This document shows positions 43,001 to 56,681 of a stretch of 64,000 nucleotides of DNA, piece by piece. Made by a program: the position numbers and the translations under genes. Location of the stretch: NCBI RefSeq assembly GCF_009712225.1, contig NZ_WASP01000006.1, positions 350,448 to 414,447 of the forward strand, read 5' to 3'. This stretch comes from Desulfovibrio sp. GTDB lineage: Bacteria; Desulfobacterota; Desulfovibrionia; Desulfovibrionales; Desulfovibrionaceae. Position 1 is the first letter of the stretch, and the number at the start of each line of letters is the position of its first letter. The notes beneath the pieces are model-generated. The model saw only the letters and a list, made by a program, of their open reading frames with translations. It was not told where the DNA came from and did no database searches.

Positions 43001-43573
43001 TTATATAGAATCTATTTCTTTTTTTATGGCCTTCACTGCATCTTTTTCTTCGGGTTTGGCGTCGAGGGCTTTTTGAAAATAGGTTTTGGCCTTGCCAGCA
43101 TCCTTGATTTCATACTTATAAATCATGCCAAGGTAGTACAGGGCATGATAGGCTCCTGCATCTAGGGCCACAATCTGTTCAAAATCGGTGATGGCATCCT
43201 GGTATCGTTCGGCCTGCAACAGCGCCATACCACGATGGTTAAGCGCATTGGCATCGGTGGGGGTAATCGCCACAACCTTTGACCAGAATTGCACAGCCTT
43301 ATCCCATTCTTCGTTACGACTGAAGGATTCTGCAATTTCCTGCAATGCTTCCACGTCTGTGGGGTTATCCTTCAGGCGTGCCATAAGTGCCGCGATGTTA
43401 GATTGTGAATCGCCAGCGGTAGTGCGCGTTGCCTCCTGACGGCCATCAGGAATGCCAGCACCATTTACAAGCAGGGTCATGAAGATTGCCATGAGGCCAA
43501 AAGCCACAATGGTCACAATCATCTTTTGCAGAGAAGTCACTTCCGAGGGCTGGATGCGTTTTTTAGCGGACAT
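43001..43573 (-). CDS. Membrane-anchored TPR protein, possible cytochrome c biogenesis factor (CcmI/CycH-like)
   Basis: The 190-residue product has one N-terminal membrane helix (MIVTIVAFGLMAIFMTLLVN) and three TPR units from about residue 75 (AVQFWSKVVAITPTDANALNHRG, AITDFEQIVALDAGAYHALYYLG, AKTYFQKALDAKPEEKDAV). It overlaps ccmF by 11 bases, so it is coupled to it. CcmI-type proteins hold apocytochrome c for the heme lyase; this shorter form would fit but is assigned by context. GAGGAGG precedes ATG 43573. Confidence 0.8.
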   Translation of the reverse strand: MSAKKRIQPSEVTSLQKMIVTIVAFGLMAIFMTLLVNGAGIPDGRQEATRTTAGDSQSNIAALMARLKDNPTDVEALQEIAESFSRNEEWDKAVQFWSKVVAITPTDANALNHRGMALLQAERYQDAITDFEQIVALDAGAYHALYYLGMIYKYEIKDAGKAKTYFQKALDAKPEEKDAVKAIKKEIDSI

Positions 43574-45461
43574 GGTTTGCCTCCTCTGCTGTTTTTCTTC
43601 TGCGCAAGGCCAAGAGGGGGAATATGCAGATGAGGATGCTGCCAATCCAAACCCAGTTGATAAGTGGGTGAACACTTACTCGCAGCGGTTGCAGCAGCCC
43701 GCTGTCGATGTCATGAATAGTCGCGTACACCTCTGTACCAAGGCTAAACAGTGTGGAGACCTCACTGTTCGGGTGATTAAAGTTCTTATACATCCGCTGT
43801 TGCGGATACAGTGTACCCACAGGCGCACCGTCTTTTTTGACATCAATGGCAGCTTCGGCAACAGTCATCATTTCATTGCTAAAACTACGCAAGCCCGTGT
43901 AAGTAAACGTGTATCCACTGGCGGAGAAACTTTCATTCAGGGCCAGCTGGCGTTCCCAGCTTTGCTGAAATGGACCGGATACCGCCACACCCAGAACCAT
44001 AAGGGCAAAAGCCAAGTGTGCGCCCTGAGCCGCAAAAAATGAGGGGCTCCACGCAGCCCGCCCTTTTACAACTATCAGGCTTGTGGTTGTAACTACTATT
44101 GAAGCTGCGGAAGCTATGCCAACAATGCTGAGCATTGGTCCCTTTATTGTTGCCACGCCAATGGCGATGCCACCAACCCATGCCAGAACTGTTGCTGCGG
44201 CAAAGTAGGGATTCCACACACCGCCTTTCCATCCAAGCCACGGAGCTACGGCCAGCAACACAGCCATAATGACGAACAGAGGCAGGCAGACCACGTTGTA
44301 GAATCCCTGCGAAACAACCATGGGCTTTGTTTCCCAAAACTGGCTGAAGACTGGCCAGATGGTTCCAAGCACAACAACCAGTCCAAGAACGAGCAGTAGC
44401 CATATGAGCATTATTGTCATGCCTGTGCGACTTGCCAGCGAGGGGAGTTCCTCGGAGCCAGAGCGGGCCATGACCACAATAGCTACAACACTTAGCAGCG
44501 AGAAAATTATTATGCCAAGCAGCAGCGGTGCTCCAACCGCACCCTGGCCAAATGCATGCAGCGATTGCACAACGCCGCTACGCACAAGGTATGTGGCAAA
44601 AATGCACAAAACAAATGTAATACACGCAAGAAAGACTGTCGTGCGCGACAAATAGCCAAAGCGCCGTTCTACTATGCGGGCATGGAGCAGGCCTGTTGCT
44701 GTGAACCAAGGAATAAGTGAGGCATTTTCAACTGGGTCCCATGCCCAATAGCCGCCCCAGCCAAGCTCCATGTACGCCCACCAACCACCGAGCAGTATGC
44801 CCGCTGTCAATGTTGCCCACGAGGCAATAATCCAGTTATGCGCGGGGGCATGCCACGCAGTGCATTCGCCAGCGGCTACTGCTCCAAGTGCCAGGCATAC
44901 CGGAACTGTAAACCCTGCGTAGCCCAGAAATAGCAGCGGGGGATGCAGCACCATGCCTATATTGCGAAGCAGGGGGTTGAGCCCTTGCCCGTCAGACAAT
45001 ATCATGCCCTGCCCGACAAAAGGGTTGCTCATTTTTGCCAGCAAAAGCAGAAAAAATGCCTGGATAAACATGTAGAAAAGCCAGAAATAGAGCTTATGCC
45101 GACTAGATATTTTTTTGTAGGTGGGTGACTTTATGGCAATGCACCCAAAACACACCACCAAGGTTGCCCAAAACAGCAAAGAACCTTCCTGTCCTGCCCA
45201 AACTGCCGCAATTGTGTAGAAGAGAGGAAGAGAATTATCTGTGTATCTGGCTACATATAAAAGTGAATAATCGCGGGCTAGCAATGCATAAAGCAAAATT
45301 ACAAATGCTATTGCAATAAATCCAAATGAGCAAAATTGTAATTTTTCCAAGATATCAATTCGATCACTGCGTCCACTCCATGCCCCATAGCAGGCTATTG
45401 CGGCTCCTGCCAAACAAGCTGTCAATGTCAGCAGCAGTGCTCCATGCGCTGTAAAAATCAT
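43563..45461 (-). CDS. ccmF: Cytochrome c-type biogenesis protein CcmF (heme lyase subunit)
   Basis: Large membrane protein that attaches heme to periplasmic apocytochromes c. The 632-residue product is typical in length, has about 15 hydrophobic segments and the tryptophan-rich WWD motif GWGGYWAWDPVENASLIPW near residue 230-248, with conserved His in VLHPPLLFLGY and LLHARIVERRFGYL. GGAGGTGG immediately precedes the ATG. Other ccm genes (A, B, C, D, E) are not in the window, so the system is split or the rest lies elsewhere. Confidence 0.95.
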   Translation of the reverse strand: MIFTAHGALLLTLTACLAGAAIACYGAWSGRSDRIDILEKLQFCSFGFIAIAFVILLYALLARDYSLLYVARYTDNSLPLFYTIAAVWAGQEGSLLFWATLVVCFGCIAIKSPTYKKISSRHKLYFWLFYMFIQAFFLLLLAKMSNPFVGQGMILSDGQGLNPLLRNIGMVLHPPLLFLGYAGFTVPVCLALGAVAAGECTAWHAPAHNWIIASWATLTAGILLGGWWAYMELGWGGYWAWDPVENASLIPWFTATGLLHARIVERRFGYLSRTTVFLACITFVLCIFATYLVRSGVVQSLHAFGQGAVGAPLLLGIIIFSLLSVVAIVVMARSGSEELPSLASRTGMTIMLIWLLLVLGLVVVLGTIWPVFSQFWETKPMVVSQGFYNVVCLPLFVIMAVLLAVAPWLGWKGGVWNPYFAAATVLAWVGGIAIGVATIKGPMLSIVGIASAASIVVTTTSLIVVKGRAAWSPSFFAAQGAHLAFALMVLGVAVSGPFQQSWERQLALNESFSASGYTFTYTGLRSFSNEMMTVAEAAIDVKKDGAPVGTLYPQQRMYKNFNHPNSEVSTLFSLGTEVYATIHDIDSGLLQPLRVSVHPLINWVWIGSILICIFPLLALRRRKTAEEANHVR

Positions 45462-45516
45462 GCCACCTCCTGAAGTTACTTGACCCTATTCTGTCTTCTA
45501 GCCTGTCAAAGTTTTT

Positions 45517-46158
45517 TTAAAATCCCCATCCACTGGGGGCTACGGCAGGCGGAATATTTGTTTCAGTTTTCTCTTTGATTGCGGCGGCCACATCAGCCGG
45601 GATGCCAAGCTGCGTGGCAAGCGCGTCGAGATAGCTGCTTTCCATGAAGTGATCGATTTCAATTACAGAGCAGCTGAGCAAAAAGATTTCTGCGGCTTCG
45701 TCCTGCGAGGTGACACCGGCAGCAATAACCTTGGGATCGAGCGGTTGCGCCAGAGCGGTATTGATTATTTCCTCTGCGGCAGGGCCAAGTTGCAGTTGCT
45801 CAACATGTGCGCGGATCACTGCTTCTTCTTTTTTATCAATAATTCCATCGCTTTTTGCGGCAAAAACCATTGCCGTTATAAGACGTGCCATTCTTGGGTC
45901 GGGAAAAGCAGGAATTTGCTGCGCCGTTGCATCCTGGGGCTGAACGGTGCGGGCGCTGTACTTGTTCCATAAAACGCTAGCCAAGGCAGCACCACCGCCA
46001 ACAAGTAGTACATTGCCCACCATCTTTTGGCCGCTCTTGCCTGTCAGCAGCGCTCCAACAATGCCGCCAAAGGCTGCGGGGGCTATGGCGCCAGCATTGA
46101 TGCCTGTTTTGTTGTTAACCTCGTCAAGTACCGATTGTATCTTTTGCATCCACTGCAT
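45517..46158 (-). CDS. TerB-like DUF533 family protein
   Basis: The 213-residue product has a Gly-rich hydrophobic stretch (GAIAPAAFGGIVGALLTG and VGNVLLVGGGAALASVLW, residues 22-65), then a helical TerB-type domain (ARLITAMVFAAKSDGIIDKKEEAVI, DHFMESSYLDALATQLGI). The acidic helix pair resembles the metal-binding TerB fold. ATG 46158 follows GAGGT. DUF533 members (E. coli YebE) have no settled function. It lies 55 bases upstream of ccmF on the same strand; a link is not evident. Confidence 0.82.
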   Translation of the reverse strand: MQWMQKIQSVLDEVNNKTGINAGAIAPAAFGGIVGALLTGKSGQKMVGNVLLVGGGAALASVLWNKYSARTVQPQDATAQQIPAFPDPRMARLITAMVFAAKSDGIIDKKEEAVIRAHVEQLQLGPAAEEIINTALAQPLDPKVIAAGVTSQDEAAEIFLLSCSVIEIDHFMESSYLDALATQLGIPADVAAAIKEKTETNIPPAVAPSGWGF

Positions 46159-46318
46159 ATGTGTAACCTCTGTATATTGTTTGCAGGCAGCTGGTAATTT
46201 GCACTGCCTCAGCGCTCTGGTGTGATCAAGTTTTCCACTGCGGTGTGGTGATAAACATATTCGTTTAGTATGCTTTTTGAGCATGCGCCTTGCCCTAAGC
46301 TGCAAGGTGAAATGCCTG

Positions 46319-48295
46319 CTAGGGTGTGCCGCTGTTTCCTGTTTTTGCGAGCGCCTTGAGTTCTCTGGCCATTGCGGCTAGCGCGGCTGATGATTCCTTG
46401 GATGCTTCAACGCCAGCAGCTGTTTCGCGAGAAATGGCATCTACCTCATTTATGCTGACTTCTATGGCGGCATTGGCGGCAAATTGTTCCTTGGCGGCAT
46501 CCGCAATGCGTTCGATCTGGCGGGATGTTTCTTCAACAAGGGGGACAATGCTGTTCAATGCCTGGCCAGAGAGAGCGGCCAGGTCTGCCGCATGGGAAAC
46601 CGCCTGTGCAGCCTGTTCCATGTCTGCAATATTGCTTGAAACGCCTGATTGTATCCGGTCAACAGCCTCGCCCACTTCCTTTGTTGCCAGCATGGTTTTT
46701 TCGGCGAGTTTGCGTACTTCATCGGCAACAACGGCAAATCCTCGTCCGGCATCGCCAGCCCTTGCGGCCTCTATGGCCGCATTGAGGGCAAGAAGATTCG
46801 TCTGATCTGCAATATCGGTTATCACGCCCATTATCTGGCCGATGGCTTCGGCCTGCCCCCCAAGGCCAGAGAGGCTTTGCTTGAGATTTTCAGATTGCTG
46901 TTGCACAACGCCGATTGCCGCCACTGAATCGAGTACAATGGTTGCGCCATGCCGGGCTTTTTCTTTGGCATCGCCAGCCAGACGCGAAGCATTTGTTGCA
47001 TTGGCGGCCACTTCTTCCACGCTGGATGAAATGCAGCTAATGGAGTTGGCAGCCTCTGTTACACGCTGACTTTGAATGGCCGAGCCGCTTGCGGCCTGTT
47101 CCATCTGGCTGGCGATACTCTCTGTGGCTTCAGAAATTTTGCTGGCCGCGCTATCAAGGGACGCATTTACGCGTTCGATTTGCGCAAGGTGCGCCGCAGT
47201 CTCGCGCTCTTTACAGGCAACCACAGTAATATCGCGTGCCACTTCAAGATATCCAAGGAGGTTGCCTTCAGGGTTGGCAACGGCAATGGCATTTGGCTGT
47301 AAAAACAGCGAGTCAGTTTTCGTTGGGTATTCAATAAGCTCCATCTGCCTGCCCCATTGCTGTGCGGGGCGCAGTTCTGTGCCGCACAGTGCTGGTTTTA
47401 TCACTGTGGTGCAGCGTTGGCCGATCATTTGCTCTTTTGGCATGCCAGCAAGTTGTTCCGCCGCTGTGTTTGAAAGAATGATTATGTCTTCCTTGTCAGT
47501 CATAAATATGGGATCTGGAACAGCGCTCAGCACGGCTTCGTTCAAAGCCAGGCTGCCGGCAATACGATCAAGCAGGTGGTCAATGGCCCGCGAGAGATCG
47601 CCGATTTCGTCGGTTTCTTTTCTGTTCATGCGCAGATGCAGAGCGCCGTTGGCAATGTTGCTGGCCATTGCAGATATCTCTGTTATCGGGCGCGTCACAC
47701 AGCGCCGGATGAAATAGGCTATGGCAACACACAACAGCAGTGTGAGCGCGCACGTTGCCACCATGGTCCAGCGCATAACGTCCACAAGGTTGTCTGCTGT
47801 TTCGGCGGTTGCCTGCGCAAGCCCCATCTGGGTTGTTTTGAGGGCTTCAATACTCTTTTCGAGCGATTCCTTTGACGGCTCGCTAACTGCTATGTCCTGG
47901 CTTGCTGCGGCTACAAACGCCCTGTAGTCATCTTCGATACGTTTCAGTTCTCCAAGGGCAGATGTCTTGTTTTCTTGCCTGAACATTTCGGCAATTTGGG
48001 CTGAGCTTGAAAAAAAGCTCTCAGTAACTTTGCGCAACTCATCACTTTTTGTGGAATTGCCCTGTGTGCTCGATTGGGAATTTGACAGCAAATACTGAGC
48101 GCGAAGCACATTGTCTCCCATTTTGTCTGCATTAATTGCATTTGGGAGCAACTCGTCAACAAAATGCATGACTGATTTGTCTATTTTTGCAAGAAATATA
48201 ACTCCAAAAAGACTGTTAAGCATAAAGATAACCGCCATAATACAAAATACAGACATTATCTTGGTGCTAATTCTCCAGCCATTTACGGTTTCCAT
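46319..48295 (-). CDS. Methyl-accepting chemotaxis protein with periplasmic four-helix domain, HAMP and PAS
   Basis: The 658-residue receptor has a first membrane helix (about 14-36), a helical periplasmic domain, a second helix ([20 protein letters not shown], near 180-200), HAMP, a PAS domain ([23 protein letters not shown], about 255-360) and a signalling domain with the same tip [20 protein letters not shown] as the other receptor. Both signal domains share long identical stretches, so they likely feed one CheA pathway. A sigma-54 promoter candidate and a shared 13-mer lie upstream. Confidence 0.92.
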
Positions 48296-48405
48296 GGTGC
48301 ATCCGGTTTTTATGGTCGTATGATACTCAATCTACAGTAGGTCCAATTGTAACAGCGCGGGCTAGAGCAACGGTGCCCTTAACACTTATACTGTTTGCGG
48401 TAAGA

Positions 48406-48420
48406 GCAACCGTCATGCCA
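48406..48420 (-). promoter_or_regulatory. Sigma-54 promoter candidate for the PAS chemoreceptor
   Basis: On the minus strand TGGCAT-GACGG-TTGC, nine of ten key positions of TGGCAC-N5-TTGC, with exact spacing, about 110 bases upstream of the start codon. Besides this site, the shared 13-mer and the terminator at 48638, nothing was seen in 48296-48713. Confidence 0.6.
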
Positions 48421-48490
48421 AATTGAATTTAATGCCTAACTTGCTAAAATTAAAAAATAAATATTTGATTGTGTGGGTATTTTAAACTCT

Positions 48491-48503
48491 GAGGGGTGCT
48501 GTA
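48491..48503 (-). repeat. 13-bp sequence shared upstream of both chemoreceptor genes, copy 2
   Basis: Identical to 18520-18532 (GAGGGGTGCTGTA on plus), 196 bases upstream of this chemoreceptor start and 71 bases beyond the sigma-54 promoter, where an activator could bind. Confidence 0.4.
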
Positions 48504-48637
48504 TGAGTAAAATTTATCCACATGCATGCTAGCGGCGGATATTATTTACTCAGGGCAAGGGTGAGATGCCCTCTAAAAAAAGCGTATATAAATCGAATGC
48601 AGGATTGTTCTGTCGCTGCTTTATGCACCAGCTACTA

Positions 48638-48672
48638 ACAAAAACACCGCGCTGCCTGCGCGGTGTTTTTGT
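48638..48672 (-). terminator. Terminator of the kinase-phosphatase operon
   Basis: 15-bp arms ACAAAAACACCGCGC / GCGCGGTGTTTTTGT, 5-base loop; minus-strand tail GTTTTTGT. Lies 42 bases after the PP2C gene. Confidence 0.8.
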
Positions 48673-48713
48673 GTGATATCCTACAAATCTCTATATATAT
48701 CAGGTGAAAACAA

Positions 48714-49430
48714 CTATGTGTAGGATGCAACAATAATTGTAATATTGTCCTTTCCTCCACAGTTTAAGGCCGAGTAGAGCAGTTTATTGATTTTTTCCTG
48801 AAGGTCAGATTCTTCAAGGAGTATCTTTTCTATAGTAGAAAAAGGTACCTCATCGTACAGGCCATCAGTACATAACAGCAGTATATCGCCCTGATCTAGT
48901 GCTGCGGCTCCATAATCTGGGTCAATTTCGGGACAACCCAAAGACTGGTCAAGTATATTGCGGAAAGGATGGCGTTTGGCTTCGGCAATTGTCATATCGC
49001 CATCGCGCACCATGCTTTCCACAAAACGGTGATCTGTTGTCAGCAGATAGAGTTTGTTTTTATGATAGCGGTACAGTCGGCTATCACCCACGTGGGCCCA
49101 GTTGACGACACCCTTATGAACAAGACAAAGCGTCATGGTTGTGCCCATGCCGTCATTGCCCGAATGTGATCGTCCATAGCGAAGAATAGCATTATGCGCT
49201 TTAAGCATGAGTGCTTTGAGTTTTTGCTGAGGGGGGGCTGCCAGGTTCTGCATTTCATGCAGACATTCCACGGCAATACTTGCTGCTTTTTCTCCCTGCG
49301 GGGCTCCACCCATGCCATCGGCAACAGCCAGCAAAAGTTCACCATCCGTCAGGCTGGAAACAAAGAGCCTGTCTTCATTTCGCTTGCGCAAATTTCCAGT
49401 GTGGCTAGCGCTTGCAATCTGCATGCTCAT
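48714..49430 (-). CDS. PP2C-family serine/threonine phosphatase
   Basis: The 238-residue cytoplasmic metal-dependent phosphatase has all key motifs: NEDR, VADGMGG, AHVGDSRLY, TDHRFVE, CTDGLYDEV and GGKDNITII. Length fits the minimal bacterial PP2C (Stp/PrpC type). It overlaps the upstream kinase gene by 4 bases, so the pair is co-translated and presumably acts on the same targets. No type VI secretion or other partner genes are nearby. Confidence 0.94.
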   Translation of the reverse strand: MSMQIASASHTGNLRKRNEDRLFVSSLTDGELLLAVADGMGGAPQGEKAASIAVECLHEMQNLAAPPQQKLKALMLKAHNAILRYGRSHSGNDGMGTTMTLCLVHKGVVNWAHVGDSRLYRYHKNKLYLLTTDHRFVESMVRDGDMTIAEAKRHPFRNILDQSLGCPEIDPDYGAAALDQGDILLLCTDGLYDEVPFSTIEKILLEESDLQEKINKLLYSALNCGGKDNITIIVASYT

Positions 49431-51232
49431 GGCCGTACTTCCAGTTGGGCGAGGGGGCGCACGGTTCTAAACCCCAGATCTGGCAATGATTCCCATTTTT
49501 GCCTGACTATGGGGCACATCGGCGCACCGGCTTGCGGAGAAGCCAAGGAAAAAAACTTCATCATGGGTTGCCCCTGTTCATACCCCCATTCGGCAAAACC
49601 ATTCGTAAGGCCAGCCATCTGCCCAGCTTTCATTGCCAAACTCCATTGTGCCGGAGTTGGTAAATCTCGATTGTAATAGTGAGCATAAGCCAGTGCCCCC
49701 TCTGCGGTAACCCTGACAACTGGCCGCTCACCATATTGCGGGTCAGATACTATAAATTTACCCTGCTGGTAGAGTATGGGCGTGTAGCCTTCCCTGGCTT
49801 CCCCAAGGAGTACCAGCACGGTGTCCTGAAAATATACGGCGCTGTCTCTGACCGAAATCTGGCTGACAATGTCGTTCAAAAAAGAAATATAACGGATATT
49901 GGAAACGGGATTTGTCTCTATATAATAAGCAGGAATTGTCTCTTTTCGAAGCTCCTGGCGTGTGTGATCTGGCTGCCATTCCGTCTCGCCGCCAGCAACC
50001 ATCTGCAACCGGGCTCCGTCAATTTCGGTCAGGGTGCTGGCCACTAGATGCGTCTTCTGGTCTTTGGCTGTACCCACATAGGGCATGCTGCCCTTGCTTT
50101 CAGCATCGCTGATAATAGAGGACTGTGCGGGGGTAGCATTCGGGTGCGGATGTCTGCCGCTCAATGATGATGGCGGCCCATAAAAGTGGTAAATTGTAAG
50201 CAGTGTAACAGGGATAAGGATTGCGATGACTGTAATGTAAAAACGCTTTCTGATGCGAATAAAGCGTTCTGACCGTTGTTGAGCTTTTTCGTCCAGCGCG
50301 GCGATTGCCAGTGAGTGCAGGCTGGTACGCAATTCGTGCACATTGGGGGTACGCTTTTGCGGTTCTTCTGCTGTGGCCTGCCGGATAATGACATCAAGTT
50401 GCGAAAAAAATACGGCGGCTGCATCTGTGCTTTGGGGTGGGACAAGTCCAACCTGCTTGAAGATATTCTTTTTGGTGTTGGTTATTTTACCAGTAATGGC
50501 CTCATACAGTATCCTGCCCAAAGAATACACATCTGCCCGCGCGTCAACAGAAGCGCCATCTTCAAATTGCTCCTTGGGCATATAGAAAATTGTTCCAAGG
50601 ACGTCATACGACTGCGTTAATCCCTGTTTTTGCGGCATTTGTGCCAATCCAAAATCTGCAACCTTGGGGATAGCACCGTCCATAAGAATGTTTTCAGGTT
50701 TGATATCCCTATGCACGATGCCTGATTTATGTACTGACTCAATTCCTTCAAGGACTGGCAAAAAATAGTCTGTAATCCATCTGGCAACTGCCTGACGGCT
50801 GTAGCCAATTCCTTCAATGGGCATTACTGAACGCAACGTAGAGTTCGGCAGGTATTCCATAACAATGTATTCAATTTTTTTGCCTTCTACGTCCGCAATA
50901 TCATAATCAAAAACCTGCAAAACATTGGGATGACGGATCTGGGCCATCGCCTGAACTTCGCGCCGGAACCGTTCTTCCTCCAGAGCCTGGTCGCCCTCTT
51001 GGTCATCCAAAAAGTCAGGCGAGATAACTTTTAATGCGACATTGCGTTCAAGGTTTTTTTGATGCGCTCTGTATACATCTCCTTTTCCACCTGAAGCAAT
51101 GTGCTCAATAATTTCCCATTTTCCATTAAGAACCAACCCAGAAGGAAGGGGGCAGCGCGGTTTTCGTGACGCGTCGGTGGATGACGAGCCTGTGTGCAGC
51201 GTCATTGAGGTATATTCGTTAGTTACAGTCAT
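49427..51232 (-). CDS. Serine/threonine protein kinase with C-terminal sulfatase-modifying-factor-like domain
   Basis: The 601-residue product has a Hanks-type kinase domain (about 30-300): ASGGKGDVYRAH, ALKVI, HRDIKPENIL, DFGLAQ and an APE-equivalent. A single membrane helix follows near 325-345 (FYITVIAILIPVTLLTIYHF), then a periplasmic domain with the FGE-sulfatase pattern (PVVRVTAEGALAYAHYY, RDLPTPAQWSLA, GFRTVRP). The catalytic cysteines of true formylglycine enzymes are absent, so this part likely binds a ligand. The first Met at 51232 has GGAG 10 bases upstream. Coupled to PP2C. Confidence 0.9.
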   Translation of the reverse strand: MTVTNEYTSMTLHTGSSSTDASRKPRCPLPSGLVLNGKWEIIEHIASGGKGDVYRAHQKNLERNVALKVISPDFLDDQEGDQALEEERFRREVQAMAQIRHPNVLQVFDYDIADVEGKKIEYIVMEYLPNSTLRSVMPIEGIGYSRQAVARWITDYFLPVLEGIESVHKSGIVHRDIKPENILMDGAIPKVADFGLAQMPQKQGLTQSYDVLGTIFYMPKEQFEDGASVDARADVYSLGRILYEAITGKITNTKKNIFKQVGLVPPQSTDAAAVFFSQLDVIIRQATAEEPQKRTPNVHELRTSLHSLAIAALDEKAQQRSERFIRIRKRFYITVIAILIPVTLLTIYHFYGPPSSLSGRHPHPNATPAQSSIISDAESKGSMPYVGTAKDQKTHLVASTLTEIDGARLQMVAGGETEWQPDHTRQELRKETIPAYYIETNPVSNIRYISFLNDIVSQISVRDSAVYFQDTVLVLLGEAREGYTPILYQQGKFIVSDPQYGERPVVRVTAEGALAYAHYYNRDLPTPAQWSLAMKAGQMAGLTNGFAEWGYEQGQPMMKFFSLASPQAGAPMCPIVRQKWESLPDLGFRTVRPLAQLEVRP

Positions 51233-51316: not shown

Positions 51317-51358
51317 GTTCGTCAGCCGATATATTTTCTGCATAACCGGCTGACGAAC
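51317..51358 (-). terminator. Hairpin after the zraP-like operon
   Basis: 12-bp arms GTTCGTCAGCCG / CGGCTGACGAAC, 18-base loop, 5 bases after the stop; minus-strand tail TTTGTAT. Separates the metal locus from the kinase gene downstream. Confidence 0.6.
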
Positions 51359-51362
51359 ATAG

Positions 51363-51761
51363 TCACCAGCAATTATTCTCCAGCACAGATCCGTCATGGT
51401 GAGCAAATGTTGCGGGGTTAATGCCATTTTTTACCAATGCAGAGTTAAACTCGTCATTTATGGTAAATAATTGTGTTTTTGCTTCTGCCATCTCCTTGTA
51501 AATATTTCGCACTGTGGAAAGATTGGCTCCAGAAGTTGCATCCTGGTTATTCAATTCACTTCGCAGTTCGGCAAGCTTCTGCTCAATGGAATAAATATTT
51601 TGATTATGTGCTGCATATAAATGTTGCGCAATGACCGCTTGTTCCTGAGTGATAGCATTGTCGGCGAATTCTTGAGGCAACGCCTGTGCTGTGTTTTGGA
51701 GTATCACCAGGGCAATCAAGCCCCACAGTAGCGTTGTAGTTACAGTTGTTGATTTTGACAT
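51363..51761 (-). CDS. zraP: ZraP-like periplasmic zinc resistance-associated protein
   Basis: The 132-residue product has a signal peptide (LLWGLIALVILQNTAQALP), then a helical domain ITQEQAVIAQHLYAAHNQNIYSIEQKLAELRSELNN typical of the ZraP/Spy/CpxP family, and a C-terminal FAHHDGSVLENNCW with His and Cys that could bind metal. ATG 51761 lacks a clear ribosome site; the frame stays open upstream, overlapping the small gene at 51790. Divergent from the kinase/regulator pair, as in E. coli zraP-zraSR. Acts probably as a zinc-dependent chaperone. Confidence 0.75.
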   Translation of the reverse strand: MSKSTTVTTTLLWGLIALVILQNTAQALPQEFADNAITQEQAVIAQHLYAAHNQNIYSIEQKLAELRSELNNQDATSGANLSTVRNIYKEMAEAKTQLFTINDEFNSALVKNGINPATFAHHDGSVLENNCW

Positions 51762-51789: not shown

Positions 51790-51963
51790 CTACCAGCCGC
51801 AACCACCGTGGCTGCCATGCCCACCATGCCAGGGTTGGGCAACAATATTCGTTTCGTTGGGCGTTTGTGCACGGCTACTAGTGGGCAAGAAGAGCGCAAA
51901 TAGTATTAAAAGCGAAAGAGATGCCGCCATAAAGCCAAAGATATTTGTTGATGTGGTAGACAT
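51790..51963 (-). CDS. 57-residue secreted His/Gly-rich peptide
   Basis: ATG 51963 with AAGGAG 7 bases upstream opens a 57-codon frame: signal peptide (MAASLSLLILFALFLPTSSRAQ), then a 25-residue mature peptide ending WHGGHGSHGGCGW. Four His/Cys within 13 residues suggest Zn, Ni or Cu binding. It is the middle gene of a minus-strand trio (SHOCT protein, this peptide, ZraP-like) under a sigma-54 promoter. Short enough to be missed by standard gene callers. No family recognised. Confidence 0.75.
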   Translation of the reverse strand: MSTTSTNIFGFMAASLSLLILFALFLPTSSRAQTPNETNIVAQPWHGGHGSHGGCGW

Positions 51964-51982
51964 GAATTGCTCCTTGGTGTGG

Positions 51983-52219
51983 TTAAAGGATTTTTTTCAG
52001 GACATTAAATTCTTCTATAGATATTTCTCCCTTTGCCAGCCGCGATTTTATTATCTCCATGGAGTCAAGGCGGTCGGCATTAATGCGGTTTTTCTTTTTG
52101 CAAAAGACCATTACCAACCAGGTTACGGCAGCGCCTGCTAGCATAAACATGCCACCCATGACCCACCAATTCCAATGCGCAAAATTTCCGATTTCGCAGC
52201 CCATATCTTCACGCTCCAT
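51983..52219 (-). CDS. Small membrane protein with C-terminal SHOCT domain
   Basis: The 78-residue product has one membrane helix (WWVMGGMFMLAGAAVTWLVMVFC), a basic stop-transfer KKKNR, and a C-terminal SHOCT motif (IIKSRLAKGEISIEEFNVLKKIL). SHOCT tails occur on many small membrane proteins and probably mediate oligomerisation. GAAGAG lies 5 bases before the ATG. First gene of the trio; its ATG is about 63 bases from the predicted sigma-54 transcription start. Confidence 0.8.
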   Translation of the reverse strand: MEREDMGCEIGNFAHWNWWVMGGMFMLAGAAVTWLVMVFCKKKNRINADRLDSMEIIKSRLAKGEISIEEFNVLKKIL

Positions 52220-52293: not shown

Positions 52294-52308
52294 GCAAAGG
52301 GTGTGCCA
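52294..52308 (-). promoter_or_regulatory. Sigma-54 promoter of the SHOCT-peptide-zraP operon
   Basis: On the minus strand TGGCAC-ACCCT-TTGC matches the sigma-54 consensus at all ten positions with the exact 5-base spacer. The predicted start is near 52282. E. coli zraP is transcribed from a sigma-54 promoter activated by ZraR, so this fits the adjacent activator gene. Confidence 0.8.
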
Positions 52309-52377
52309 ATCTTGCTATGTTTGTATAACTGTATAAAAAATTTGAATATAAAATTTTATTGAACAAGGCAGTGTTCG

Positions 52378-52401
52378 CGTGATGCATAAAAAATGCTCAC
52401 G
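52378..52401. promoter_or_regulatory. Candidate upstream activator dyad 1
   Basis: Near-palindrome CGTGA-T-GCAT, A-run, ATGC-TCACG, about 108 bases upstream of the predicted sigma-54 transcription start. Probably a binding site for the NtrC-type regulator. Confidence 0.5.
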
Positions 52402-52415
52402 AAACAATATGGCGG

Positions 52416-52432
52416 CGAGTAAAAAATACTCG
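52416..52432. promoter_or_regulatory. Candidate upstream activator dyad 2
   Basis: Perfect 6-bp dyad CGAGTA-AAAAA-TACTCG, with its centre 34 bases (about three helical turns) from dyad 1, about 142 bases upstream of the sigma-54 start and 24 bases before the kinase gene. Confidence 0.55.
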
Positions 52433-52455: not shown

Positions 52456-54240
52456 ATGGATGTTACTAAAGCAGAGCGCTCAGAGCCATCTTCCGGGAGG
52501 CTCTTTTTTGGTTTGTCGCCATGGTTGTTGATCGGGGTTTCTTTGATTTTGGGGTTGGCTATTGTGGTGCTGGCCATCAGAAATTCCGGTCGGGAAAAAA
52601 TGCATATCACGCAAAATTTGCTCGACCGGGCCGACTCTCTGATCTGGGCACTGGAGGCCGGAGCGCGAACCGGCATTAATGACAAAACGCGGCAGTCGGT
52701 TTTGCAATCGCTGATTGTAGAAACAGCAAAGCAACCTGGTGTCATCTATATTGCAGTCATTGACCGTAGCGCAAAAATTTTGGCCCACAGCGACCCCAAC
52801 AAGGTAGGAAGCAGCCTTGCACAAGGCGAGTTGCCAGGCGTTTCGCCCGAAGATGCCGTTAAGCCCGTGCTGACAGGCAGCATTGAAGCAAACCTGTTTG
52901 AAGTTTACCGCGGGTTTTCTCCCTTGCAGGATATCTCTGGCCGCAGCCATGAGCATGAGGGGCATGCCTCCATGCACTGGGACATGCAGCCTGAGGATGC
53001 CTCACAGATGGCGCCAGCAACGGCCACAAGCTATGCATTTGTTGGCATAGACAGAAAACCGTTTGCCGAAGCCTTGTCGGTTGATTACTGGAACAACATC
53101 CTGGCGGCGTCCATTGTGGCCGCCTTTGGTCTTGCCGGGGTTATTTCGCTATTCTGGGCGCACAGTTACAAGCGTTCGCGGCGCAAATTGAAAGGGAGCA
53201 AGGCCTTTGCCGAAGCCGTAGTAACCAGCCTGCCGGTCGGACTTATTACCAGTGACCCCGACGGCAAAATCAGCATGATCAACGAGACGGCACGCAACAT
53301 GCTTCGCATTGCGGACCAAGGCATTGACGACATGGCGGTGGCAGATATTCAAGGCCTGGATTGGCAGGCCATCGCGTCAACGCTGACGGGTAAGCGAAAG
53401 GTTTTTGAACGCGAAATGGATTTTGTCTCGCCTGATTCAGAGGCTGTGCCCATCAGTGTCAGCGCATCGGAAATCCGCGACGAAGACGGACTTTTTTTGG
53501 GCCATCTTTATATCCTCAGGGACATCGCAGAAGTAAAACGCTTGCAGGCCGAGGTGCAGCGCAATGAACGCCTGACCGCTCTGGGCAACCTGGCGGCTGG
53601 TGTTGCCCATGAAATACGCAATCCCCTCAGCTCAATCAAAGGGCTTGCGTCATTTCTGGCAAGCAAAATGGCGCCCGGCGGGGCGGAAGAAGATGCCGCA
53701 AAAACTATGGCTTTTGAGGTAAATCGTCTGAACAGGGTAGTTTCAGAACTGCTTCAGTTTGCCCGCCCCAACGCCATAGCTCTGACCAGCACTGATATAA
53801 ATGAAGTTATCACACGGGCCTTGCGCCTGGCCGAGTCAGATATCAGTTCCAGGGGCATAACCGTGCGGTTCAAGCCTGATACTGAGTTTACGCCGGTTAA
53901 CATCAATGCCGAGCGGATGACGCAGGCCTTGCTCAACCTGTTTTTAAACGCAGTGCAGGCCATGGAGCAGGGTGGCATTCTTGGTGTGCGTGTGGAAAAG
54001 AAAGACGATGGCATGTTTGCAATAATTGTTACAGATACCGGCAAGGGCATGGATAAAAAAACACTCGCCGCAATTTTTACGCCATATTTTACCACCAAGG
54101 GAGCGGGCACGGGCCTTGGCTTGCCCATAGTCCATCAAATCGTTGAAGGCCATGCCGGTAAAATTTCAGTTGCAAGCACGCCAGGGGTGGGTAGCGTATT
54201 TACCATGCTGCTGCCATTGCACAAAGAGCAGGAGAAGTAG
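52456..54240 (+). CDS. zraS: Sensor histidine kinase, ZraS-like
   Basis: The 594-residue inner-membrane sensor has membrane helices at about 22-41 and 214-235, a periplasmic domain of 170 residues, a PAS-like domain (250-360), and kinase boxes: H box GVAHEIRNP (His385), N box NLFLNAVQAM, and G boxes DTGKGM and GTGLGL. The periplasmic loop contains a His cluster H165, H167, H170, H174 with nearby Met (HEHEGHASMHWDM), a likely metal-binding segment. It is 2 bases from the regulator gene. Symbol by synteny with zraP. Confidence 0.87.
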   Translation: MDVTKAERSEPSSGRLFFGLSPWLLIGVSLILGLAIVVLAIRNSGREKMHITQNLLDRADSLIWALEAGARTGINDKTRQSVLQSLIVETAKQPGVIYIAVIDRSAKILAHSDPNKVGSSLAQGELPGVSPEDAVKPVLTGSIEANLFEVYRGFSPLQDISGRSHEHEGHASMHWDMQPEDASQMAPATATSYAFVGIDRKPFAEALSVDYWNNILAASIVAAFGLAGVISLFWAHSYKRSRRKLKGSKAFAEAVVTSLPVGLITSDPDGKISMINETARNMLRIADQGIDDMAVADIQGLDWQAIASTLTGKRKVFEREMDFVSPDSEAVPISVSASEIRDEDGLFLGHLYILRDIAEVKRLQAEVQRNERLTALGNLAAGVAHEIRNPLSSIKGLASFLASKMAPGGAEEDAAKTMAFEVNRLNRVVSELLQFARPNAIALTSTDINEVITRALRLAESDISSRGITVRFKPDTEFTPVNINAERMTQALLNLFLNAVQAMEQGGILGVRVEKKDDGMFAIIVTDTGKGMDKKTLAAIFTPYFTTKGAGTGLGLPIVHQIVEGHAGKISVASTPGVGSVFTMLLPLHKEQEK

Positions 54241-54242
54241 TC

Positions 54243-55595
54243 ATGGCAAGAAACAAAACACAGATACTGGTGGTTGACGATGATCAGGGACACCGCTCAA
54301 CCCTTGCCACACTGCTTTCAGACTGGAGCCATCGTGTAACTGCCGTGGTGGACGGAGAGTCAGCAATCGATGCGTGCAAAAATTCTCCCTTTGATCTGGT
54401 GCTCATGGATGTTCGCATGACCGGCATCAGCGGCATTGACGCCCTGAAAGCAATCAGGGTGCATAACCCGGCAATACCCATCATCATTATGACGGCGTAT
54501 TCGGATGTGAGCAATGCCGTGGAGGCGCTTAAAGCCGGAGCTTATGACTATTTGACCAAACCCCTGGATTTTGAGGAGCTTAAACTTACGCTGGAGCGTG
54601 CGGCTGAGCATCTCAAACTTATTGATGAAAACAGCGCGCTAAAAATGGCGCTCGCCCAAACCTTCAACCCTGGCGAAGTAATTGGCAAAAGCCCTCAGAT
54701 GCACGCGCTTTTTGAAATGGTTTCCACTATTGCCTCGTCTGAGGCAACGGTTTTGATTACAGGCGAATCCGGCACGGGCAAGGAGGTTGTGGCTAAAATG
54801 ATCCACGCCAACAGTAACCGAAAAAACGGGCCATATATCGCTGTAAACTGCGCAGCGCTTACGGAAACCCTGCTGGAGTCAGAGCTGTTCGGTCATGAGC
54901 GTGGTGCGTTTACCGGGGCGGAAAAAAAGAGGGAGGGGCGTTTTTGGGCCGCCAATAAAGGAACCATCTTTCTGGATGAAATTGGCGAAATCCCACTGGC
55001 CATGCAGGCCAAGCTGCTGCGTGTCATTCAGGAGAGGGAAATTCAGCGTGTGGGTGGGGACCATGTTCTTAAGGTCGATGTGCGCATTCTGGCTGCAACC
55101 AACAAGGTTCTAAAAGAAGAAGTGACGGCTGGGCGTTTTCGGCAGGATTTGTACTACAGGCTCAATGTTGTTTCGCTCCGCTTGCCGGCATTGCGCGAGA
55201 GAAGGGAAGATATTCCGCCTCTTGCCATGCATTTTCTTAAAAAATTTGCCAAGAAAAATGAAAAGAACGTCAAAGGATTCACCCCTGGCGCAATGGATGT
55301 CCTTGTAAAATATGCGTGGCCAGGAAATGTGCGCGAGCTGGAAAATACTGTTGAGCGCGCTGTTGTGCTGCTAATGGGAGAATATGCGAGCGAGCGCGAG
55401 CTGCCGCCAGCCCTTTTTGATCAGGCTGAAGAAGAAATTGCCCCATCAAGGGATTTTTCTGACATGACACTGGAAGAAATTGAACGTGTAATTCTTACAG
55501 AAGTTGTTGAAAATGTGGGGGGTAACAAGAGTGAAGCGGCGCGCCGCCTGGGCATCACCAGAAAAACGCTTGCTTCAAAAATGCAGCGTTCATGA
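54243..55595 (+). CDS. zraR: Sigma-54-dependent response regulator, ZraR/NtrC family
   Basis: The 450-residue product has a receiver domain (DDD near 12-14, phospho-acceptor D56 in VLMDVRM, T and K at 84 and 106), an AAA+ domain with Walker A GESGTGKE, the sigma-54 contact loop GAFTGA and Walker B IFLDEIGE, and a C-terminal Fis-type helix-turn-helix ([21 protein letters not shown]). It should activate the sigma-54 promoter at 52294 and perhaps that at 56759. It ends tail-to-tail with the methyltransferase gene, overlapping by 6 bases. Confidence 0.9.
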
Positions 55596-56318: not shown

Positions 56319-56681
56319 TTAATCTACATGGTTGGGGTTTTTCGCTTCGCTGCTGTGAATGGCGGCGTTGTTGGCGGCCTGTTCATGTCCCCCGCCGTGT
56401 GCTTCAAAAGAGACCGCCTGCGTTGTGCCCTGCTGCGGGGCTGTGCTGCGCTCGGCAGCGTGGACAGTCGCATTGTTATTTGCCTGCTCATGCCCACCGC
56501 CATGCTCGCTGTAGGCTACCACTTTTTGTGCGGCTGCGGCTGAACCAGGACGGTGCTCTCCACTCTGATGCGCCGCTGGCGAGTCGTGTCCGTATTCTCC
56601 ACCCCAGGCGTAGGCAGCGCTTGCTGCGCCACAAAGAGTTATGGTCAGCGCCGCAGCGATAATTCCTTTGTTCATTTTCAT
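56319..56681 (-). CDS. Secreted His-rich tandem-repeat protein
   Basis: The 120-residue product has a signal peptide (AALTITLCGAASAAYA) and a mature part of 90-odd residues rich in His, Gly, Ala, Asn and Glu. Two repeats of about 20 residues read SEHGGGHEQANNNATVHAAE and EAHGGGHEQAANNAAIHSSE, separated by 15 residues. It likely binds metal in the periplasm. A sigma-54 promoter lies 78-92 bases upstream, suggesting control by the neighbouring regulator. No known family recognised. Confidence 0.8.
   Translation of the reverse strand: MKMNKGIIAAALTITLCGAASAAYAWGGEYGHDSPAAHQSGEHRPGSAAAAQKVVAYSEHGGGHEQANNNATVHAAERSTAPQQGTTQAVSFEAHGGGHEQAANNAAIHSSEAKNPNHVD

Follow-up and report, generated by a model that had tools for sequence, protein, structure and literature searches.

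The open reading frame described here is probably (we would put it at roughly 0.6) the gene for an exported, tail-only ZraP-like metal-binding peptide that is induced by ZraR from a sigma-54 promoter. It lies in a stretch of 64,000 nucleotides, referred to below as the window, as the middle gene of a three-gene operon that encodes a SHOCT protein, the peptide and a ZraP-like protein and that is divergent from zraS-zraR. The features of the operon are as follows.

51983..52219, minus strand: operon gene 1, SHOCT-domain small membrane protein of 78 residues (Pfam SHOCT, E 1e-5, slightly below the cut-off)
51975..51970, minus strand: Shine-Dalgarno sequence AAGGAG, by direct reading
51963..51790, minus strand: mini-peptide ORF, 57 residues, MSTTSTNIFGFMAASLSLLILFALFLPTSSRAQTPNETNIVAQPWHGGHGSHGGCGW (ATG at 51963, stop codon at 51792..51790)
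51868..51963, minus strand: predicted signal-peptide region, residues 1-32, with a hydrophobic core and ending in S-R-A, by direct reading
51793..51867, minus strand: predicted mature part QTPNETNIVAQPWHGGHGSHGGCGW, with the tail WHGGHGSHGGCGW, from the translation
51363..51761, minus strand: ZraP-like protein, 132 residues, with its own signal peptide and the C-terminus ENNCW (NCBIfam PRK11546, E 5e-5)
51317..51358, minus strand: 12-bp perfect inverted repeat GTTCGTCAGCCG/CGGCTGACGAAC, 3′ of the zraP-like gene, by direct reading

A sequence-only reading of this DNA had proposed a secreted peptide of 57 residues with a good ribosome site, inside a sigma-54 operon. The ORF is indeed present at exactly 51790-51963, on the minus strand, with AAGGAG situated 6 nt before the ATG. 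The translation likewise contains the Gly-spaced mature part of 25 residues that had been described, with three His and one Cys, and two Trp in addition. The position in a sigma-54 operon was also borne out, by the following elements and by the ZraR-type context.

52308..52294, minus strand: sigma-54 -24/-12 element TGGCACACCCTTTGC (TGGCAC-N5-TTGC), upstream of the operon
52372..52406, no strand assigned: imperfect inverted repeat TGTTTCGTGAGCAT...ATGCATCACGCGAACA, second candidate activator site, by direct reading
52416..52432, no strand assigned: palindrome CGAGTATTTTTTACTCG, candidate upstream activator site, from a palindrome search

ZraR-type regulators activate sigma-54 promoters. The sigma-54 element alone is weak evidence, because approximately 0.5 such elements are expected by chance in 64 kb; it becomes convincing because the same element was found at a matching position, approximately 88-112 bp 5′ of the SHOCT gene, in 17 of 20 related loci. 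An activator role for the palindrome CGAGTATTTTTTACTCG is not established, since GAGTA-N-TACTC was found elsewhere in only one locus (L129), and a search for an exact palindrome revealed no ZraR box common to all loci. The inverted repeat at 51317..51358 is likely to mark the end of the operon; no T run follows the repeat, and it was not among the calls of a terminator scan. For the SHOCT gene, an alternative start at 52204 (MGCEIGNF...), which matches the homologues, is possible. The zraP-like gene starts at 51761 (minus strand), 28 nt past the peptide stop codon, and has no clear Shine-Dalgarno sequence; it may therefore depend on translational coupling to the peptide gene. Its product matches the library models weakly (PRK11546, E 5e-5; Metal_resist, E 0.011) and the ZraPs of relatives more clearly in a profile comparison (E 2.3e-8, probability 95%); its tail is short, without the usual Gly/His/Met-rich sequence.

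ZraP (zinc resistance-associated protein; NCBIfam NF008584/PRK11546, Pfam PF13801 Metal_resist, structure 3LAY) consists of a chaperone core with metal-binding ends. The ZraP homologues collected often end in a Gly/His/Met/Cys tail, and a C-terminal C-x(0-2)-W was observed in 34 of 101 of them (an approximate count, a few being extended frames of short peptides or related copies) as compared with 1 of 416 long ORFs from the same loci. The peptide ends in GGCGW, as compared with ENNCW in the ZraP-like protein of the window. Like ZraP, the peptide is encoded in a sigma-54 operon beside zraSR and has a Gly/His/Cys-rich end with the terminal C-x(0-2)-W of a third of the homologues, and it may likewise be exported; unlike ZraP, it is devoid of the helical core, and PF13801 and PRK11546 are unmatched. 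By membership tests, then, the predicted peptide is no ZraP, though a ZraP tail and its context are common to both. In effect, it resembles a ZraP metal-binding tail encoded by a gene of its own.

Two loci of other genomes are instructive in this regard. A small-peptide gene of Humidesulfovibrio L141 (5661-5855) and the next gene, zraP (5915 onward), agree at 107 of their first 109 positions; beyond these, the peptide gene lacks the part for the helical core and continues only into a tail that ends in CGGWGW. The shared DNA at L141 reflects a duplication or conversion that is recent and in which the ZraP core was lost. G293 likewise encodes a peptide of 56 residues that copies, in shortened form, the N-terminal portion of the ZraP next to it (97 of 122 bases). 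The L141 and G293 copies indicate that coreless ZraP mini-proteins do arise from zraP. For the peptide gene of the window, no DNA trace of such a derivation was seen. A frameshifted or split ZraP was considered for the window and discarded: the zraP-like gene starts independently and encodes a signal peptide of its own, and in relatives the peptide is a separate closed frame.

Profile searches of the order revealed syntenic peptides outside the genus. In G216 the operon order is SHOCT, MKTRTNTKRGTILAAIALGAAILLGQAMPSQAQTASASPAATTTSSSWHGGGGWHGGGHGGGCCGW, ZraP. In a third genus (G158 and G163) the peptide ends in YHGGHGGHGGCNW, as compared with WHGGHGSHGGCGW in the window. Among 5000 shuffles of the partner, not one gave as good a tail match; such counts overstate the strength of the tail similarity as evidence, however, because Gly/His-rich tails are low in complexity. 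In the genus of G216 and in that of G158 and G163, ccmF lies directly 3′ of zraP. In the window, a CcmF-like gene (43563..45461), identified by its resemblance to those ccmF genes, is found a few genes downstream of the zra operon, which together with the arrangement in the two genera suggests one ancestral locus. The region from the CcmF-like gene to the zra operon (43563-51232, minus strand) also encodes a Ser/Thr kinase with a sulfatase-modifying-factor domain, a PP2C phosphatase, a chemoreceptor-like protein and a further small gene product.

Other zra operons of the order contain further small proteins. In the Humidesulfovibrio operons L141-L143, two or three small secreted peptides lie in tandem 3′ of SHOCT. 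The operons L252 (G196) and L270/L296 (G326) contain at least four small secreted or lipobox-bearing proteins around SHOCT and zraP, some of them lipoproteins, with Gly/Tyr/Trp/Cys tails; none of these matched a Pfam family. In L257 (G161), SHOCT is kept, zraP is gone and the peptide frame is without the HGG...C-x-W tail. Beyond the order, nothing convincing was observed in a sample of 178 genomes of the phylum, an absence that is no proof because a limited number of candidates was scored per genome. It is apparent that the window peptide is one of several predicted small secreted proteins of zra operons with ZraP-like tails, some of which are plainly coreless ZraP copies.

His is not universal in this set, because the tails of the other genera are poor in His and rich in Gly, Tyr, Trp and Met. 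That composition, together with the tail common to the peptide and to ZraP C-termini, would suit a role as an accessory subunit of the ZraP chaperone, or as an extension of it that binds clients, without any function in metal handling; the Gly/aromatic/Cys tail would then help to solubilise unfolded envelope proteins or anchor ZraP. Such a role is nevertheless unlikely, given that the window tail and those nearest to it retain His clusters and a Cys and that ZraS has a His-rich loop.

The divergent genes that encode the two-component system are as follows.

52456..54240, plus strand: ZraS-like sensor kinase with an sCache domain and a His-rich periplasmic loop SHEHEGHASMHWDM; best NCBIfam model ZraS (E 8e-129, under the strict cut-off), sCache_3_2 E 1e-10
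54243..55595, plus strand: ZraR-like sigma-54-dependent response regulator; best NCBIfam model ZraR (E 4e-174, under the strict cut-off), Sigma54_activat E 2e-73

Approximately 0.7 kb past zraR, on the minus strand (56319-56681), is a gene for a 120-residue secreted protein with two His-rich repeats, SEHGGGHEQANNNATVH and EAHGGGHEQAANNAAIH, and no Pfam family.

A feedback role has reportedly been proposed for ZraP in E. coli. The peptide could be a regulatory ligand that, in its metal-loaded or metal-free form, binds to the sensor domain of ZraS in the periplasm and lowers the kinase activity. Its expression from a promoter divergent to zraSR, which it always adjoins, and the sCache domain and His-rich loop of ZraS fit such an arrangement. 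The tails, however, differ greatly among genera whereas ZraS is conserved; we therefore regard the ligand role as quite improbable. For regulation in other organisms, DVU3384 of D. vulgaris is presumably zraP. Under envelope stress response, DVU3382-DVU3381 and DVU3384 are listed as targets of the D. vulgaris regulator DVU3381 (PMC4641369). ZraR of E. coli controls both zraP and zraSR; it is debated whether the Zra system serves zinc resistance or a broader envelope stress response (PMC7657598).

The signal peptide that had been proposed stands in part. The hydrophobic core and a putative signal peptidase site, SRA|QT (called by eye), are present; the n-region, with no Lys or Arg, is atypical for a signal peptide, and for that reason export of the window peptide is likely but not certain. 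Zero Lys/Arg before the hydrophobic core and one Arg after it would be compatible with an uncleaved membrane micro-protein, its hydrophobic segment remaining embedded in the membrane and its tail facing either side. The S-R-A sequence where cleavage is expected, and the n-region Lys and A-x-A sites of related copies, make this a distinctly poor prospect.

It was of interest to establish how far the peptide is conserved within the genus. A single-sequence search gave weak matches, none of them significant; two of these (E ~0.3) are true copies, judging by their position. With the SHOCT gene or protein as the anchor for finding related loci, 20 SHOCT copies were identified in 16 of 79 genomes of the genus. 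The sequence-only reading had named a non-conserved frame, or no translation signal, as grounds for refutation; frame and position are kept in 14 strong copies from 13 of the 79 genomes, and the Shine-Dalgarno sequence was found. In all 14 copies, that of the window included, the peptide gene immediately follows SHOCT and precedes zraP on the same strand. A second copy in the genome of the window lies on another contig (L118, MSTPKLALIFASLALALAWAVTTPAANAAEIQPQSSWCGGQQSGPHGPHGYGSGH). A search for plasmid-borne copies yielded none.

So that the test would not be circular, the window copy was left out of the profile, which was made from the other 13 genus copies; the window ORF ranked first of the 788 ORFs in the window (E 2.7e-5; next, 0.014). 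Pooled pN/pS ratios, for the related copies rather than the window copy and from non-independent pairs, were 0.35 and 0.38 in two groups of relatives, the constraint being equally strong in the mature and the signal part. As far as such ratios can be read, they show purifying selection on the peptide in relatives. The ligand set is not fixed, because the Cys shifts or disappears among relatives, one genus copy having WRG instead of WCG. The closest zraS locus (L128, in G023) has zraSR and SHOCT; neither the peptide nor zraP was found within the 380 bases that extend to the end of the contig. A chance or decayed ORF without a product, in keeping with the short length and with the absence of a close orthologue of the exact copy outside its own operon type, is contradicted by the conserved frame, position and tail, the coding constraint and the profile rank, and is scarcely credible. 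On comparative grounds, the predicted peptide gene and its family are well supported.

This family is new, in that it is absent from the Pfam and NCBIfam models, none of which matched the peptide or its relatives in a library search, and from the literature searched. Literature searches found no paper linking SHOCT with zinc resistance-associated protein, and none on small His-rich secreted metal-binding peptides. Two known groups resemble the peptide by description. The disordered periplasmic metal-binding proteins of the SilE/PcoE type are likewise exported, flexible and presumed to buffer metal, but are longer, form Met/His helices upon metal binding and belong to sil/pco operons. The Hpn and Hpn-like nickel proteins of Helicobacter are, like the peptide, His-rich and of approximately 60 residues, but are cytoplasmic, have far more His and lack the zra context.

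The preferred reading, that of a ZraR-induced, tail-only metal-binding peptide, may be set out as follows. ZraS would sense periplasmic metal or envelope stress, and ZraR would switch on the sigma-54 promoter at 52308..52294, from which all three genes of the operon (SHOCT, peptide and zraP-like) would be expressed together. Cleavage of the signal peptide would release a flexible 25-residue peptide, the end of which, WHGGHGSHGGCGW, would be a free-standing ZraP metal-binding tail. Its His cluster and near-terminal Cys would bind a soft or borderline metal (Zn, Cu or Ni), and the peptide would buffer periplasmic metal, probably alongside the ZraP-like protein that is without the usual Gly/His/Met-rich tail. 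Metal capture in the periplasm alongside that short-tailed protein would be the simplest role for the peptide. Metal binding and the choice of metal we infer from its composition and from the ZraP tail, and a partnership with ZraP is suggested in the same tentative manner. Counted against this reading are the strong down-regulation of zraP by Cu(II) in D. alaskensis (PMC8836040), the lack of peptide and zraP in L128, the variable Cys and the atypical n-region. The metal-binding interpretation offered earlier is reasonable, if still tentative. Of the minimal periplasmic peptide then envisaged, a real gene with a likely exported product and a Gly/His/Cys tail remains; it is not isolated, however, but one of a set of ZraP-tailed small proteins.

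It is possible, as a tentative extension, that in the Desulfovibrionaceae the metal-binding ZraP tail has been separated from the chaperone core more than once, giving a family of exported, tail-only mini-proteins (up to three in tandem in a single operon) that may act as metal-handling subunits or as feedback signals to ZraSR. The zra operons of sulfate reducers contain small-protein genes for which the libraries searched have no family model. An end of ZraP made as a separate peptide, beside or replacing the tail on ZraP itself, would be a natural separation of functions, and the part of the tail in metal binding and in the control of ZraS could therefore be tested alone.
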